Shown: positions 1,828 through 14,300 of the stretch, one piece after another
How positions within the stretch are numbered: position 1 is the first letter of the stretch
How the letters are laid out: every line of letters starts with the position of its first letter
NCBI GenBank assembly: GCA_963971405.1
Contig: CAXART010000009.1
Span: 868,001 to 932,000, forward strand
DNA: 64,000 bases
DNA from: Psococerastis gibbosa
Lineage: Eukaryota > Arthropoda > Insecta > Psocodea > Psocidae
Reading direction: 5' to 3'
The notes under the pieces: model-generated
What the model saw: the letters and a program-made list of their open reading frames with translations, nothing else
Told to the model about the DNA's origin: nothing
Databases searched by the model: none
Made by a program: the position numbers and the translations under genes

Positions 1828-1840
1828 TACACCGATGTAC
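1828..1840 (+). repeat. Target-site duplication, left copy
   Basis: The 13 bases TACACCGATGTAC directly precede the insert and recur at 2085-2097. The identity stops one base further out (T at 1827, C at 2084). The uninterrupted sequence occurs once in the paralogous empty site at 5255-5267, so this is a duplicated target and not part of the element. The first TAC could instead belong to the element's TAC tail, so the true length is 10-13 bp. Confidence 0.88.
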
Positions 1841-1853
1841 AGCCGGCCGCCAT

Positions 1854-1906
1854 ACCAAGTTGAATCCAGCGGACCAGAGCAGGTTCAAAGCTGCAGACAA
1901 CTTGGT
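1854..1906 (+). other. Stem-loop in the insert with 9-bp perfect stem
   Basis: ACCAAGTTG at 1854-1862 is perfectly complementary to CAACTTGGT at 1898-1906. The loop contains a smaller GCAG/CTGC stem (1879-1882 with 1891-1894) that presents GTTCAAAG, including the B-box-like motif. This is a predicted RNA fold seen by eye; no energy was calculated. Confidence 0.6.
1883..1891 (+). promoter_or_regulatory. B-box-like internal pol III promoter motif
   Basis: GTTCAAAGC matches the consensus GWTCRANNC at every constrained position. In tRNA-derived SINEs this box lies some 30-50 bp after an A box, but no good A-box match is seen in the 42 bases upstream. A nine-base degenerate motif can arise by chance, so this is suggestive only. 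Confidence 0.4.
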
Positions 1907-1925
1907 CGTGTGCACAGTGCCGGTA

Positions 1926-1990
1926 GGGAAACATGGTAGGACTTGTCCTGGTCACCTCCGAACTAATCGTGTGACTTCACTGTGTTTCCC
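1926..1990 (+). other. Branched stem in the insert
   Basis: GGGAAACATGGT (1926-1937) pairs with ACTGTGTTTCCC (1979-1990) over 12 positions, two of them G-U. Inside are two smaller inverted repeats: GGAC/GTCC (1939-1948) and GTCAC/GTGAC (1951-1955 with 1971-1975). Together they could form a three-way junction in RNA. Confidence 0.5.
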
Positions 1991-1991
1991 A

Positions 1992-2009
1992 AGTGGTTCG
2001 GAATCCACT
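1992..2009 (+). other. tRNA T-arm-like hairpin in the insert
   Basis: A 5-bp stem AGTGG/CCACT (1992-1996 and 2005-2009) encloses TTCGGAAT. A canonical tRNA T arm has a 5-bp stem with a 7-base TTCRANN loop. This differs by one extra base in the loop. It may be a degenerate tRNA relic or a second B box, or a chance likeness. Confidence 0.4.
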
Positions 2010-2030
2010 ATAATCAGGAGGTCCACTGGA

Positions 2031-2060
2031 GTCCTATGGGCCCACACCGTGGCCTGGGAC
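2031..2060 (+). other. 3' hairpin in the insert
   Basis: GTCCTA (2031-2036) pairs with TGGGAC (2055-2060, one G-U). Inside it GG/CC and CCAC (2042-2045)/GTGG (2049-2052) close over ACC. It sits 12 bases before the TAC tail, where many SINEs keep the structure recognised by a partner LINE reverse transcriptase. That role is inference. Confidence 0.45.
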
Positions 2061-2072
2061 TGTGTCAAACCA

Positions 2073-2087
2073 TACTACTACTACTAC
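2073..2087 (+). repeat. (TAC)5 tail at the insert's 3' end
   Basis: Five TAC units run from 2073 to 2087. The last one overlaps the right target duplication, which itself begins with TAC. Short tandem tails of this kind occur on SINEs mobilised by LINE clades that do not need poly-A. The match of tail and target suggests priming by microhomology. Confidence 0.75.
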
Positions 2088-2097
2088 ACCGATGTAC
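2085..2097 (+). repeat. Target-site duplication, right copy
   Basis: TACACCGATGTAC is identical to 1828-1840. Satellite sequence then resumes without loss: ACGCAGGAGCAAGTG continues the j-type monomer as at 5268 onward. Confidence 0.88.
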
Positions 2098-5000
2098 ACG
2101 CAGGAGCAAGTGTTTAATGTTAAGTACAATACAATGAGCCTAAATAAGCAAAATTAAGACACCTATATCTTTTAAAGACCTTTAAAAAAAATAATATAAG
2201 TAAATAGCTATTTTTCTTATTCTTGTCGAATGAATTTTTTTTAGCTACATTTACACCGATGAACACGCAGGAACAATTGCTCAATGTTACGTACAATACA
2301 ATGAGCCAAATTAAGCAAAATTAAGACACCTATATCTTTTTAAAACCTTCAAAAAAAATAAAATAAGTAAATAGCTATTTTTCTTATTCTTGTCGAATGA
2401 ATTTTTTTTAGCTACATTTACACCGATGAACACGCAGGAGCAACTGCTCAATGTTAAGTACAATACAATGAGCCAAAATAAGCCAAATTAAGACACCCGC
2501 GTCATATCAAGACCTTTAAAAAAAATAAAATAAGTATATAGCTATTTTTCGTATTCTTGTCGAATGAATTTTTTGTAGCTACATTTACACCGATGTACAC
2601 GCAGGAGCAAGTGGTCAATGTTAAGTACAATACAATGAGCCTAAATAAGCAAAATTAAGACACCTATATCTTTTTAAGACCTTTAAAAAAAATAAAATAA
2701 GTAAATAGCTATTTTTCTTATTCCTGTCGAATGAATTTTTTTTAGCTACATTTACAACGACGAACACGCAGGAACAATAGCTCATTGTTAAGTACAATAC
2801 AGTGAGCCAAAATAGGCAAAATTAAGACACCTATATCTTTTTAAAACCTTTAAAAAAAAATAAAATAAGTAAATAGCTATTTTTCTTATTCTTGTCTAAT
2901 GAATTTTTTTTAGCTACATTTACACCGATGAACACGCAGGAACAATTGCTCAATGTTGAGTACAATACAATGAGCCAAAATAAGCCAAACTAAGACACCC
3001 GTGTCATATCAAGACCTTTAAAAAAAATAAAATAAGTATATAGCTATTTTTCGTATTCTTGTCGAATGAATTTTTTGTAGCTACATTTACACCGATGTAC
3101 ACGCAGGAGCAAGTGTCCAATGTTAAGTACAATACAATGAGCCTAAATAAGCAAAATTAAGACACCTATATCTTTTAAAGACCTTTAAAAAAAATAAAAT
3201 AAGTAAATAGCTATTTTTCTTATTCTTGTCGAATGAATTTTTTGTAGCTACATTTACACCGATGAACACGCTGGAGCAATTGCCTAATGTTAGATACAGT
3301 ACAATGAGCCAAAATAAGCAAAATAAAGACACCTATATCTTTTTAAATCCTTTAAAAAAATAAAATAAGTAAATAGCTATTTTTCTTATTCTTGTCGAAT
3401 GAATTTTTTTTAGCTACATTTACACCGATGAACACGCAGGAGCAATTGCTCAATGTTAATTACAATACAATGAGCCAAAATAAGCCAAATTAAGACACCC
3501 GTGTCATATCAAGACCTTTAAAAAAAATAAAATAAGTATTTAGCTAATTTTCTTATTCTTGTCGAATGAATTTTTTTTAGCAACATTTAAACCGATGTAC
3601 ACGCAGGAGCAATTGTTTAATATCAAGTGCGATACAATGAGCCAAAATAAGCAAAATTAAGACACCTACATCTTTTAGAAACCTTTAAAAAAATAAAATA
3701 AGTAAATAGCTATTTTTCTTATTCTTGTCGAATGAATTTTTTTTAGCTACATTTACAACGATGAACACGCAGAAGCAATTGCTCAATGTTAATTACAATA
3801 CAATGAGCCAAAATAAGCCAAATTTAGACACCCGTGTCATATCAAGACCTTTAAAAAAAATAAAATAAGTATATAGCTAATTTTCTTATTCTTGTCGAAT
3901 GAATTTTTTTTAGCTACATTTACACCGATGAACACGCAGGAGCAATTGCTCAATGTCACGTACAATACAATGAGCCTAAATAAGCAAAATTTAGACACCT
4001 ATATCTTTTTAAGACCTTTAAAAAAAATAAAATAAGTAAATAGCTATTTTTCTTATTCTTGTCGAATGAATTTTTTTTAGCTACATTTACACCGATGAAC
4101 ACGCAGGAACAATTGCTCAATGTTAAGTACAATACAATGAGCCAAAATAAGCAAAATTAAGACACCTATATCTTTTTAAAACCTTTAAAAAAAATAAAAT
4201 AAGTAATTAGCTATTTTTCTTATTCTTGTCGAATGAATTTTTTTTAGCTACATTTACACCGATGAACACGCACGAGCAATTGCTCAATGTCAAGTACAAT
4301 ACAATGAGCCAAAATAAGCCAAATTAAGACACTTATGTCATATCAAGACCTTTAAAAAAAATAAAATAAGTATTTAGCTAATTTTCTTATTCTTGTCGAA
4401 TGAATTTTTTTTAGCTACATTTACACCGATGAACACGCAGGAGCAATTGTTTAATGTCACGTACAATACAATGAGCCTAAATAAGCAAAATTTAGACACC
4501 TATATCTTTTTAAGACCTTTAAAAAAAATAAAATAAGTAAATAGCTATTTTTCTTATTCTTGTCGAATGAATTTTTTTTAGCTACATTTACACCGATGAA
4601 CACGCAGGAACAATTGCTCAATGTTAAGTACAATACAATGAGCCAAAATAAGCAAAACTAAGACACCTACATCTTTTAGAAACCTTTAAAAAAATAAAAT
4701 AAGTAAATAGCTATTTTTCTTATTCTTGTCGAATGAATTTTTTTTAGCTACATTTACAACGATGAACACGCAGAAGCAATTGCTCAATGTTAAGTACAAT
4801 ACAATGAGCCAAAATAAGCCAAATTAAGACACTTATGTCATATCAAGACCTTTAAAAAAAATAAAATAAGTATTTAGCTAATTTTCTTATTCTTGTCGAA
4901 TGAATTTTTTTTAGCTACATTTACACCGATGAACACGCAGGAGCAATTGTTTAATATCAAGTACGATACCATGAGCCAAAATAAGCAAAATTAAGACACC

Positions 5001-5254
5001 TATATCTTTTTAAAACCTTTAAAAAAATAAAATAAGTAAATAGCTATTTTTCTAATTCTTGTCGAATGAATTTTTTTTAGCTACATTTACACCGATGAAC
5101 ACGCAGGAGCAGTTGCTCAATGTTAAGTACAATACAATGAGCCAAAATAAGCCAAATTAAGACACCCGTGTCATATCAAGACCTTTAAAAAAAATAAAAT
5201 AAGTATATAGCTATTTTTCGTATTCTTGTCGAATGAATTTTTTGTAGCTACATT

Positions 5255-5267
5255 TACACCGATGTAC
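5255..5267 (+). other. Empty insertion site, paralogue of 1828-1840
   Basis: TACACCGATGTAC occurs here once, between an h/i chimera and a j-type monomer. This is exactly the context that flanks the insert at 1841-2084. It gives the pre-insertion sequence and confirms the 13-bp duplication. Confidence 0.85.
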
Positions 5268-5763
5268 ACGCAGGAGCAAGTGTTTAATGTTAAGTACAAT
5301 ACAATGAGCCTAAATAAGCAAAATTAAGACATCCAATATCTTTTTAAGACCTTTAAAAAAAATAAAATAAGTAAATAGCTATTTTTCTTATTCTTGTCGA
5401 ATGAATTTTTTTTAGCTACATTTACACCGATGAACACGCAGGAACAATTGCTCAATGTTACGTACAATACAATGAGCCAAATTAAGCAAAATTAAGACAC
5501 CTATATCTTTTTAAAACCTTCAAAAAAAATAAAATAAGTAAATAGCTATTTTTCTTATTCTTGTCGAATGAATTTTTTTTAGCTACATTTACACCGATGA
5601 ACACGCAGGAGCAACTGCTCAATGTTAAGTACAATACAATGAGCCAAAATAAGCCAAATTAAGACACCCGCGTCATATCAAGACCTTTAAAAAAAATAAA
5701 ATAAGTATATAGCTATTTTTCGTATTCTTGTCGAATGAATTTTTTGTAGCTACATTTACACCG

Positions 5764-5929
5764 ATGTACACGCAGGAGCAAGTGGTCAATGTTAAGTACA
5801 ATACAATGAGCCTAAATAAGCAAAATTAAGACACCTACATCTTTTAGAAACCTTTAAAAAAATAAAATAAGTAAATAGCTATTTTTCTTATTCCTGTCGA
5901 ATGAATTTTTTTTAGCTACATTTACAACG
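5764..5929 (+). repeat. t-type monomer with short o-type conversion patch
   Basis: The monomer starts as type t (CAAGTGGTC, CCTAAATAAGC) and ends as type t (TTCCTGTCG at 5891 onward). Its middle from 5838 to about 5861 has the o/e-type bases CTACATCTTTTAGAAACC and a 7-A run. Two switches inside one monomer fit a short gene-conversion tract better than crossover. The unconverted counterpart is the t monomer at 2593. Confidence 0.75.
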
Positions 5930-11395: not shown

Positions 11396-14300
11396 CTTGT
11401 CGAATGAATTTTTTTTAGCTACATTTACACCGATGAACACGCAGGAACAATTGCTCAATGTTAAGTACAATACAATGAGCCAAAATAAGCAAAATTAAGA
11501 CACCTATATCTTTTTAAAACCTTTAAAAAAAATAAAATAAGTAATTAGCTATTTTTCTTATTCTTGTCGAATGAATTTTTTTTAGCTACATTTACACCGA
11601 TGAACACGCACGAGCAATTGCTCAATGTCAAGTACAATACAATGAGCCTAAATAAGCAAAATTAAGACACCTATATCTTTTTAAGACCTTTAAAAAAAAT
11701 AAAATAAGTAAATAGCTATTTTTCTTATTCTTGTCGAATGAATTTTTTTTAGCTACATTTACACCGATGAACACGCAGGAGCAATTGTTCAATGTTAAGT
11801 ACAATACAATGAGCCAAAATAAGCAAAATTAAGACACCCTTATCATATCAAGACCTTTAAAAAAAATAAAAAAAGTAAATAGCTATTTTTTTTATTCTTG
11901 TCGAATGAATTTTTTTTAGCAACATTTAAACCGATGTACACGCAGGAGCAATTGTTTAATATCAAGTACGATACAATGAGCCAAAATAAGCAAAACTAAG
12001 ACACCTACATCTTTTAGAAACCTTTAAAAAAATAAAATAAGTAAATAGCTATTTTTCTTATTCTTGTCGAATGAATTTTTTTTAGCTACATTTACAACGA
12101 TGAACACGCAGAAGCAATTGCTCAATGTTAAGTACAATACAATGAGCCAAAATAAGCCAAATTAAGACACTTATGTCATATCAAGACCTTTAAAAAAAAT
12201 AAAATAAGTATTTAGCTAATTTTCTTATTCTTGTCGAATGAATTTTTTTTAGCTACATTTACACCGATGAACACGCAGGAGCAATTGTTTAATATCAAGT
12301 ACGATACCATGAGCCAAAATAAGCAAAATTAAGACACCTATATCTTTTTAAAACCTTTAAAAAAATAAAATAAGTAAATAGCTATTTTTCTAATTCTTGT
12401 CGAATGAATTTTTTTTAGCTACATTTACACCGATGAACACGCAGGAGCAGTTGCTCAATGTTAATTACAATACAATGAGCCAAAATAAGCCAAATTAAGA
12501 CACCCGTGTCATATCAAGACCTTTAAAAAAAATAAAATAAGTATTTAGCTAATTTTCTTATTCTTGTCGAATGAATTTTTTTTAGCTACATTTACACCGA
12601 TGAACACGCAGGAACAATTGCTCAATGTTAAGTACAATACAATGAGCCAAAATAAGCCAAATTAAGACACCCGTGTCATATCAAGACCTTTAAAAAAAAT
12701 AAAATAAGTATATAGCTATTTTTCGTATTCTTGTCGAATGAATTTTTTGTAGCTACATTTACACCGATGTACACGCAGGAGCAAGTGTTTAATGTTAAGT
12801 ACAATACAATGAGCCTAAATAAGCAAAATTAAGACACCTATATCTTTTAAAGACCTTTAAAAAAAATAATATAAGTAAATAGCTATTTTTCTTATTCTTG
12901 TCGAATGAATTTTTTTTAGCTACATTTACACCGATGAACACGCAGGAACAATTGCTCAATGTTACGTACAATACAATGAGCCAAATTAAGCAAAATTAAG
13001 ACACCTATATCTTTTTAAAACCTTCAAAAAAAATAAAATAAGTAAATAGCTATTTTTCTTATTCTTGTCGAATGAATTTTTTTTAGCTACATTTACACCG
13101 ATGAACACGCAGGAGCAATTGCTCAATGTTAAGTACAATACAATGAGCCAAAATAAGCAAAATTAAGACACTCATATCATATCAAGACCTTTAAAAAAAA
13201 AAATAAGTATATAGCTATTTTTCTTATTCTTGTCGAATGAATTTTTTGTAGCTACATTTACACCGATGAACACGCTGGAGCAATTGCCTAATGTTAGATA
13301 CAGTACAGTGAGCCAAAATAAGCAAAATAAAGACACCTATATCTTTTTAAAACCTTTAAAAAAATAAAATAAGTAAATAGCTATTTTTCTTATTCTTGTC
13401 GAATGAATTTTTTTTAGCTACATTTACACCGATGAACACGCAGGAGCAATTGCTCAATGTTAATTACAATACAATGAGCCAAAATAAGCCAAATTAAGAC
13501 ACCCGTGTCATATCAAGACCTTTAAAAAAAATAAAATAAGTATTTAGCTAATTTTCTTATTCTTGTCGAATGAATTTTTTTTAGCAACATTTAAACCGAT
13601 GTACACGCAGGAGCAATTGTTTAATATCAAGTGCGATACAATGAGCCAAAATAAGCAAAATTAAGACACCTACATCTTTTAGAAACCTTTAAAAAAATAA
13701 AATAAGTATATAGCTAATTTTCTTATTCTTGTCGAATGAATTTTTTTTAGCTACATTTACACCGATGAACACGCAGGAGCAATTGCTCAATATTAAGTAC
13801 AATACAATGAGCCAAAATAAGCAAAATTTAGACACCCAAATCATATCAAGACCTTTAAAAAAAATAATATAAGTAAATAGCTATTTTTTTTATTCTTGTC
13901 GAATGAATTTTTTTTAGCAACATTTAAACCGATGAACACGCAGGAGCAATTGCTCAATGTCACGTACAATACAATGAGCCTAAATAAGCAAAATTAAGAC
14001 ACCTATATCTTTTTAAGACCTTTAAAAAAAATAAAATAAGTAAATAGCTATTTTTCTTATTCTTGTCGAATGAATTTTTTTTAGCTACATTTACACCGAT
14101 GAACACGCAGGAACAATTGCTCAATGTTAAGTACAATACAATGAGCCCAAATAAGCAAAATTAAGACACCTATATCTTTTTAAAACCTTTAAAAAAAATA
14201 AAATAAGTAATTAGCTATTTTTCTTATTCTTGTCGAATGAATTTTTTTTAGCTACATTTACACCGATGAACACGCACGAGCAATTGCTCAATGTCAAGTA

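Follow-up and report, generated by a model that had tools for sequence, protein, structure and literature searches.

What is the GC-rich segment that breaks a satellite array at one place, and did it enter the array once or several times? The window analysed here is a stretch of 64,000 bp that corresponds to positions 868001-932000 of the 973-kb contig C16, part of a genome of 409 Mb and 68 contigs. From position 1 to 64000 it consists of a 167-bp satellite array, in which Tandem Repeats Finder placed 167-bp rows at 1-1841 and 2085-64000; the sole interruption of these rows lies at 1841-2084. A preliminary description of this DNA had claimed a GC-rich, TAC-tailed segment of 244 bp between two 13-bp copies of satellite sequence, and these details were borne out: the two 13-mers are identical, the insert has 54% GC versus 28.6% in the satellite that follows it, and its end carries four TAC units. 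We are highly confident that the segment is a full-length, recently inserted SINE that combines a 5S-rRNA-like 5' end with a common central domain and closes with a (TAC)n tail.

The insertion site and its empty paralogue

The ends of the insert and the related sites in the window are as follows.

1828-1840, strand not applicable: target-site duplication, 5' copy TACACCGATGTAC, satellite sequence that matches 2085-2097 exactly (14 bp if A1841 is counted)
1841-2084, + strand: element read as a full-length SINE of subfamily A (a leading A followed by 243 bp that start with GCCGGCC), based on near-identical and dispersed copies
2073-2084, + strand: (TAC)4 terminal repeat; TAC repeats, some of them mutated, also close the A and B copies seen elsewhere
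2085-2097, strand not applicable: target-site duplication, 3' copy, identical to 1828-1840
5255-5267, strand not applicable: unfilled paralogous site, within the 99.6% identical block 4768-5768

The boundary of the insert is ambiguous by one base, as A1841 can be either the first base of the element or base 14 of the duplication. The pair of TACACCGATGTAC copies next to the insert proves little alone because this 13-mer is satellite sequence and occurs 38 times in the window. The insertion is proven because taking out the insert together with one duplicate brings back the satellite phase. A 1000-bp probe, in which the two flanks were joined and one 13-mer was dropped, matched positions 4768-5768 of the window with 99.6% identity over 1001 bp, and the runner-up paralogue among the matches listed reached 95.4%. 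The site at 5255-5267, which had been proposed as the state before insertion, lies inside this block and can be retained as such.

Copies across the genome and the class of the element

A search of the host genome with the 244 bp gave 1325 first-look candidates, the best 40 of which were all 99-100% identical to the query and span 11 contigs (C1, C2, C3, C12, C13, C14, C15, C16, C19, C20 and C47). The 30 loci that were fetched are best matches and no random sample. Ten of them show no difference from the window copy over 243 bp; half of these ten lie in the satellite, the window's own included. The remaining 20 loci carry one or two base differences. Two haplotypes recur among the 30 fetched copies, C57/C60 and T57/A60 (14 loci), and L021 carries T57 only; this pattern suggests that more than one source copy or lineage was probably active recently.

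For the analysis of the flanks, L002-L005 were left out as the same event as L001, which gave 26 flank sets. Exact target duplications of 9-15 bp, mostly different from one another, were present in 21 of these 26, and a mismatched-pairing control, in which the 5' flank of each locus was set against the 3' flank of another, yielded a match of at least 8 bp in 2 of 650 pairings. Both control positives were read as the pair L016/L022, whose flanks are in common and represent one event, so that exact duplications accompany 20 of 25 distinct events. An exact duplication of at least 8 bp was absent from five of the 26 flank sets (L010, L014, L015, L023 and L028); by eye, a duplication that is imperfect or offset is visible in the first four but not in L028. 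In 16 of the 21 exact duplications the first letters are TA, which is inseparable from the final letters of the TAC tail. At L010:1745-1775, about 21 extra bases were seen by eye between the 5' end and the duplicate of the 3' flank, a 5' extension. Dispersed copies with different flanking duplications are what the preliminary description had named as support for a SINE, and neither of the contrary outcomes it had listed, a lack of further genomic copies or fixed, non-duplicated flanks, occurred.

The abundance of the family was estimated with short patterns over the whole genome, each of which had a reversed control with 0 sites. A 25-mer covering the end of tail A and the first TAC units was found exactly at 1656 sites, a 29-mer of tail B at 2508 sites with up to two mismatches, and a 32-mer of the central domain at 13,187 sites with up to three mismatches. 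BLAST found matches in nine of 20 random 10-kb stretches, in one case over just 24 bp. The six A/B-like copies from the random stretches have 86-97% identity to the window copy, and the copies with 99-100% identity therefore represent the young end of the family. The longest listed ORF that overlaps the element, under bacterial start-codon rules, has 85 amino acids and extends into the satellite.

These results bear on two other classes. A single retrocopy of a host RNA, belonging to no repeat family, would account for the target duplication and the 3' repeat tail, but it is refuted by the copy counts, as the same ends recur in many copies, at the 40 scored places and at the exact tail A sites; we give it practically no credence. 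A non-autonomous DNA transposon (MITE) would likewise be short, present in many copies and flanked by target duplications. However, the length of the duplications varies over the range given above, the ends GCCGGCC.. and ..(TAC)n, as read, are not mutual inverted repeats, and the TAC-repeat tail is also borne by copies that lack the 5' part; the MITE reading, rejected for its variable duplications and repeat tail, is very improbable. The insert is a member of a young SINE family, a known and ordinary kind of element, and a well-defined example of it: its dispersal, the mostly different duplications, the tail repeat, the 5'-less copies, the empty site and the co-amplification with the satellite were all observed.

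Head, central domain and tails

Within the element the following parts were distinguished, all on the + strand.

1842-1872, + strand: 5S-rRNA-like 5' end, in register from 5S base 1 (nine-head profile; shuffles of the first 24 nt)
1882-1892, + strand: B-box-like motif GGTTCAAAGCT, an uncertain, possible type-2 pol III element
1926-1937, + strand: 5' strand of a predicted 12-bp RNA stem, pairing with 1979-1990
1946-2029, + strand: central domain common to differently tailed relatives (alignment to C-type copies; 32-mer count)
1979-1990, + strand: 3' strand of the predicted 12-bp RNA stem, pairing with 1926-1937
2030-2072, + strand: A-type 3' tail, presumed LINE-derived recognition region, from which point on the A, B and C relatives diverge

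A profile of nine heads aligned with the genome's own 5S rRNA over positions 1-31 with 12.6 bits, a value that none of 1000 shuffles attained (the best gave 10.5), and it produced no alignment to 5S past base 31. The first 24 nt scored above 2000 of 2000 shuffles against the own 5S in each of five copies, and the own 5S (L051) is identical to an older copy at 21 of 22 positions from base 1 of both. With stricter gaps, the best local alignments to the own 5S gave scores that single-base shuffles rarely reached: 2 of 2000 for the window copy, 1 for L037 and 0 for L043. The alignment of a Drosophila 5S sequence likewise began at base 1, but under loose gap costs its score was reached by 315 of 2000 dinucleotide shuffles, and the genome's own 5S with stricter gap costs was used in its place. 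At bases 25-105 all five copies stayed within the range of shuffles, 114 to 651 of 2000 of which scored at least as well. Neither the window copy nor two older copies were hit by the Rfam 5S model at E values up to 10. Over the whole of Rfam, the two older copies gave nothing and the element only a chance match to PreQ1 (E 6.6) in a small hairpin. By Rfam, the shuffles of five copies and the nine-head profile, the 5S internal promoter (boxes A, IE and C) is not recognisable in the head; the likeness to 5S ends at base 24-31, and a putative type-1 promoter therefore lacks support. From sequence comparison we describe the 5' end of the head as 5S-like, and derivation of the head from 5S rRNA, as in SINE3-type elements, is likely and only partly shown.

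The end of the 5S likeness at about base 31 and the B-box-like motif at 1882-1892 are points in favour of another origin, a tRNA-derived (SINE2) head whose first 31 nt would resemble 5S through later acquisition or coincidence. The B box consensus is GGTTCRANNCC, and GGTTCAAAGCT agrees with it at 10 of 11 positions. This match is weak, however, since 110 of 2000 shuffles do equally well; the best A-box match of the head is at chance level (1293 of 2000 shuffles), and ARAGORN found no tRNA in the window. The scores of the first 24 nt against the own 5S also speak against a tRNA head, as two older copies score higher (93 and 102) than the window copy (75), although L033 is equal (75) and L043 lower (61). 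Rejected on the lack of a tRNA in the window, the chance-level A box and the weak B box, a tRNA-derived head appears unlikely. TTTT is absent inside the element, a feature compatible at most with pol III transcription.

Apart from the SINE, full-length 5S-like sequences of 112-118 bits were located outside the C15 clusters, on C1, C2, C3, C12, C13, C14 and C19 (best 47 of 14106 candidates). Two of these dispersed 5S-like sequences, L052 and L053, have flanks unlike each other and unlike those of the C15 copy.

The predicted transcript folds with -90.8 kcal/mol (z -2.91), and none of 200 shuffles was as low. In the 12-bp stem 94.8% of cells are paired over 13 copies, versus 28-58% when one strand is slid by 1-3 columns. 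At one position of the stem, all six A/B-like copies have an A-U pair; of the seven C-like copies, six have G-C there and one has G-U. Of 500 column shuffles, none reached the observed percentage paired and 3 reached the covariation score, so that these two values are exceptional. The number of pairs with changes on both sides was matched by 200 of the 500 and that of pair types by 454, and neither is remarkable. As the A-U/G-C change may be one event, the covariation is suggestive only, and so is the conserved RNA stem predicted at 1926-1937/1979-1990.

After a common head and domain, the aligned copies carry three different tails: A, as in the window, B (..ACCCGACGAACAC(TAC)n) and C (..AAAGCAGAAATGCTGAA.. 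with AAC-like repeats), the C-type copies being the more diverged ones. The window copy agrees with two C-type copies at 75/82 and 73/82 positions of the domain, at 73/99 and 72/100 of the head and at 25/54 and 23/54 of the tail. A third diverged copy, L043, agrees at 75/98 positions of the head and 55/69 of the domain, and the latter value counts against strict conservation of the central domain. Exact central-domain patterns were absent from a viral collection, and one pattern was absent from a prokaryote collection.

On C1 below 7.7 Mb there are 39 tail sites among those listed (17 A and 22 B), 27 of which have an exact central domain within 160 bp. In nine of the other 12 the domain is mutated, and all or most of it is missing from L055, L056 and L064, so that 2-3 of the 39 listed tail sites are copies that lack the 5' part and end in the same tail. 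L055 is a 5'-truncated copy and L056 is probably another. The final 29 nt of L064:1-159 are tail B, placed after a different repeated body (163 first-look candidates); L064 may represent a SINE that was truncated or the 3' end of a LINE. At L042:2309-2390 a C-type tail lies behind a body without the central domain, beside an exon that by eye is elongase-like and would fit an insect host, and this body is possibly the source element of tail C.

Amplification in the array, proposed mobilization and relatives

The preliminary description had called the element a lone one, which holds for the 64-kb window and fails for the array, where four more copies with 100% identity lie upstream on the same contig. 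The five SINE-bearing satellite sites are C16:835290, 838549, 846310, 858075 and 869841, the last being the window copy; the other four are 12-35 kb upstream of it, their flanks are shared with it and the elements are identical in all five. L001 and L002 agree over 3244 bp. On the upstream side, L001 matches L004 or L005 at 1499/1500 bp and L004 matches L005 at 1500/1500, and on the downstream side L003 matches L004 at 1500/1500; the other pairwise flank comparisons of the five copies gave 905-1318/1500 in ungapped register. Identical elements with shared flanks argue for one insertion multiplied with the satellite, and we read the five copies as a single insertion that would have spread by exchange within the array, its neighbours having been altered on one side or else on the other. 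Five independent insertions at the same satellite position would require target preference, for which sites are at hand, as a 39-base form of the insertion site is present 33 times in the window. Against this stand the full identity of the five elements, the long agreement of L001 with L002 and the fact that every copy matches at least one other at 1499-1500/1500 bp on at least one side; differing duplications or haplotypes among the five copies were looked for and none were seen. Separate insertions were rejected on these identical elements and matching flanks and are hardly credible.

Two of the four spacings between the SINEs on C16 are 11,765 and 11,766 bp. The satellite at 2098-64000 has an ungapped self-identity of 74% at offset 167 and lower values at all other tested offsets from 150 to 24,999; with its peak only at 167 among the offsets tested, no simple higher-order repeat is evident inside the window.

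Under the single-insertion reading, a small RNA, probably a pol III transcript, would have been the starting template, its 3' tail would have been recognised by the reverse transcriptase (RT) of a LINE whose 3' end matches this tail, and the copy would have entered a satellite monomer by target-primed reverse transcription. The unfilled paralogue together with the four filled sister copies points to an order of events in which the block was duplicated, the SINE entered one of the copies and the filled block was amplified further. Unequal exchange or a similar array process may then have spread the block with its SINE, which is now present at no fewer than five places in a span of 35 kb.

RT domains are abundant in the genome (best 150 of 7549 candidates, with LINE status judged by match span alone). 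A comparison of the RT places on C1 with the listed A/B-tail sites (approximately the first 28 and 33 Mb, 100 each, checked in part) revealed no partner LINE, and the only same-strand downstream RT/tail pair within 12 kb among the sites checked has 7.2 kb between the end of the RT and the tail. At the 12 tail sites that were fetched, no LINE 3' end carrying an A or B tail was identified, L064 being a candidate. A polyA-tailed LINE end in L046 was rejected as the partner, and two TAC runs in this locus appeared to belong to another repeat.

By eye, L029:1758-2026 holds another (TAC)-tailed repeat, here element X, which is about 270 bp long and has its own target duplication AACTTTATGG; the window-type SINE in L029 sits a few bases inside the 5' end of this repeat. 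The best 40 of 4782 first-look candidates for element X all begin within its first 6 bases, although best hits favour full length. Element X looks like another short element on TAC-tailed machinery and not like a LINE end.

Compared by description only, SINE3-1_TC of Tribolium castaneum and the planthopper elements are likewise insect SINEs with a 5S-derived 5' end, and, again by description only, the window SINE is unlike the SINE3-1_TC type in having no recognisable 5S internal promoter region. High-copy planthopper elements with the SINE3-1_TC motif have been reported (PMC6401454), and for SINE3-1_TC itself an I-clade LINE has been named as the apparent agent of mobilization (PMC7245038). 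In Helicoverpa, according to a passage on HaSE3, this element is 5S-derived and has its body and tail in common with the tRNA-headed HaSE1 (PMC3272025). PxSE4 and PxSE5 of Plutella are described as 5S-derived SINEs with 5' parts in common, different 3' ends and boundaries set by empty sites (PMC8010984). The same article gives them about 63% identity to Bombyx 5S with the A, IE and C boxes kept, whereas the promoter boxes are not recognisable in the window SINE. As described in these excerpts, the HaSE3/PxSE4/PxSE5 group further differs in its tails, (TGA)n and (ATGT)n versus (TAC)n here, and in length (389 bp versus 244 bp). The CORE, V, Deu, Ceph and other central-domain SINEs, as outlined in source excerpts, resemble the present family in that the domain is common to relatives with different 3' tails.

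A passage from 2012 names just one other insect 5S-derived SINE besides the single one of that paper itself (PMC3272025), and further ones were added in 2021, as an excerpt indicates (PMC8010984). Sequence strings of the element, sought in the literature, gave an unrelated match only. Set against the known 5S SINEs by description only, the family may represent an undescribed SINE superfamily, a proposal that we make tentatively and without leaning towards it. It would be defined by a common 84-bp domain, a 5S-derived 5' end with no recognisable promoter and at least three tails (A, B and C), as if LINE partners had been changed, and its (TAC)n types would have been active recently, invading the satellite and being amplified with it. 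One body with several tails is useful for the study of how SINEs switch between LINE partners, and a clean, datable insertion in an otherwise uniform satellite array is a tag for tracing satellite turnover.
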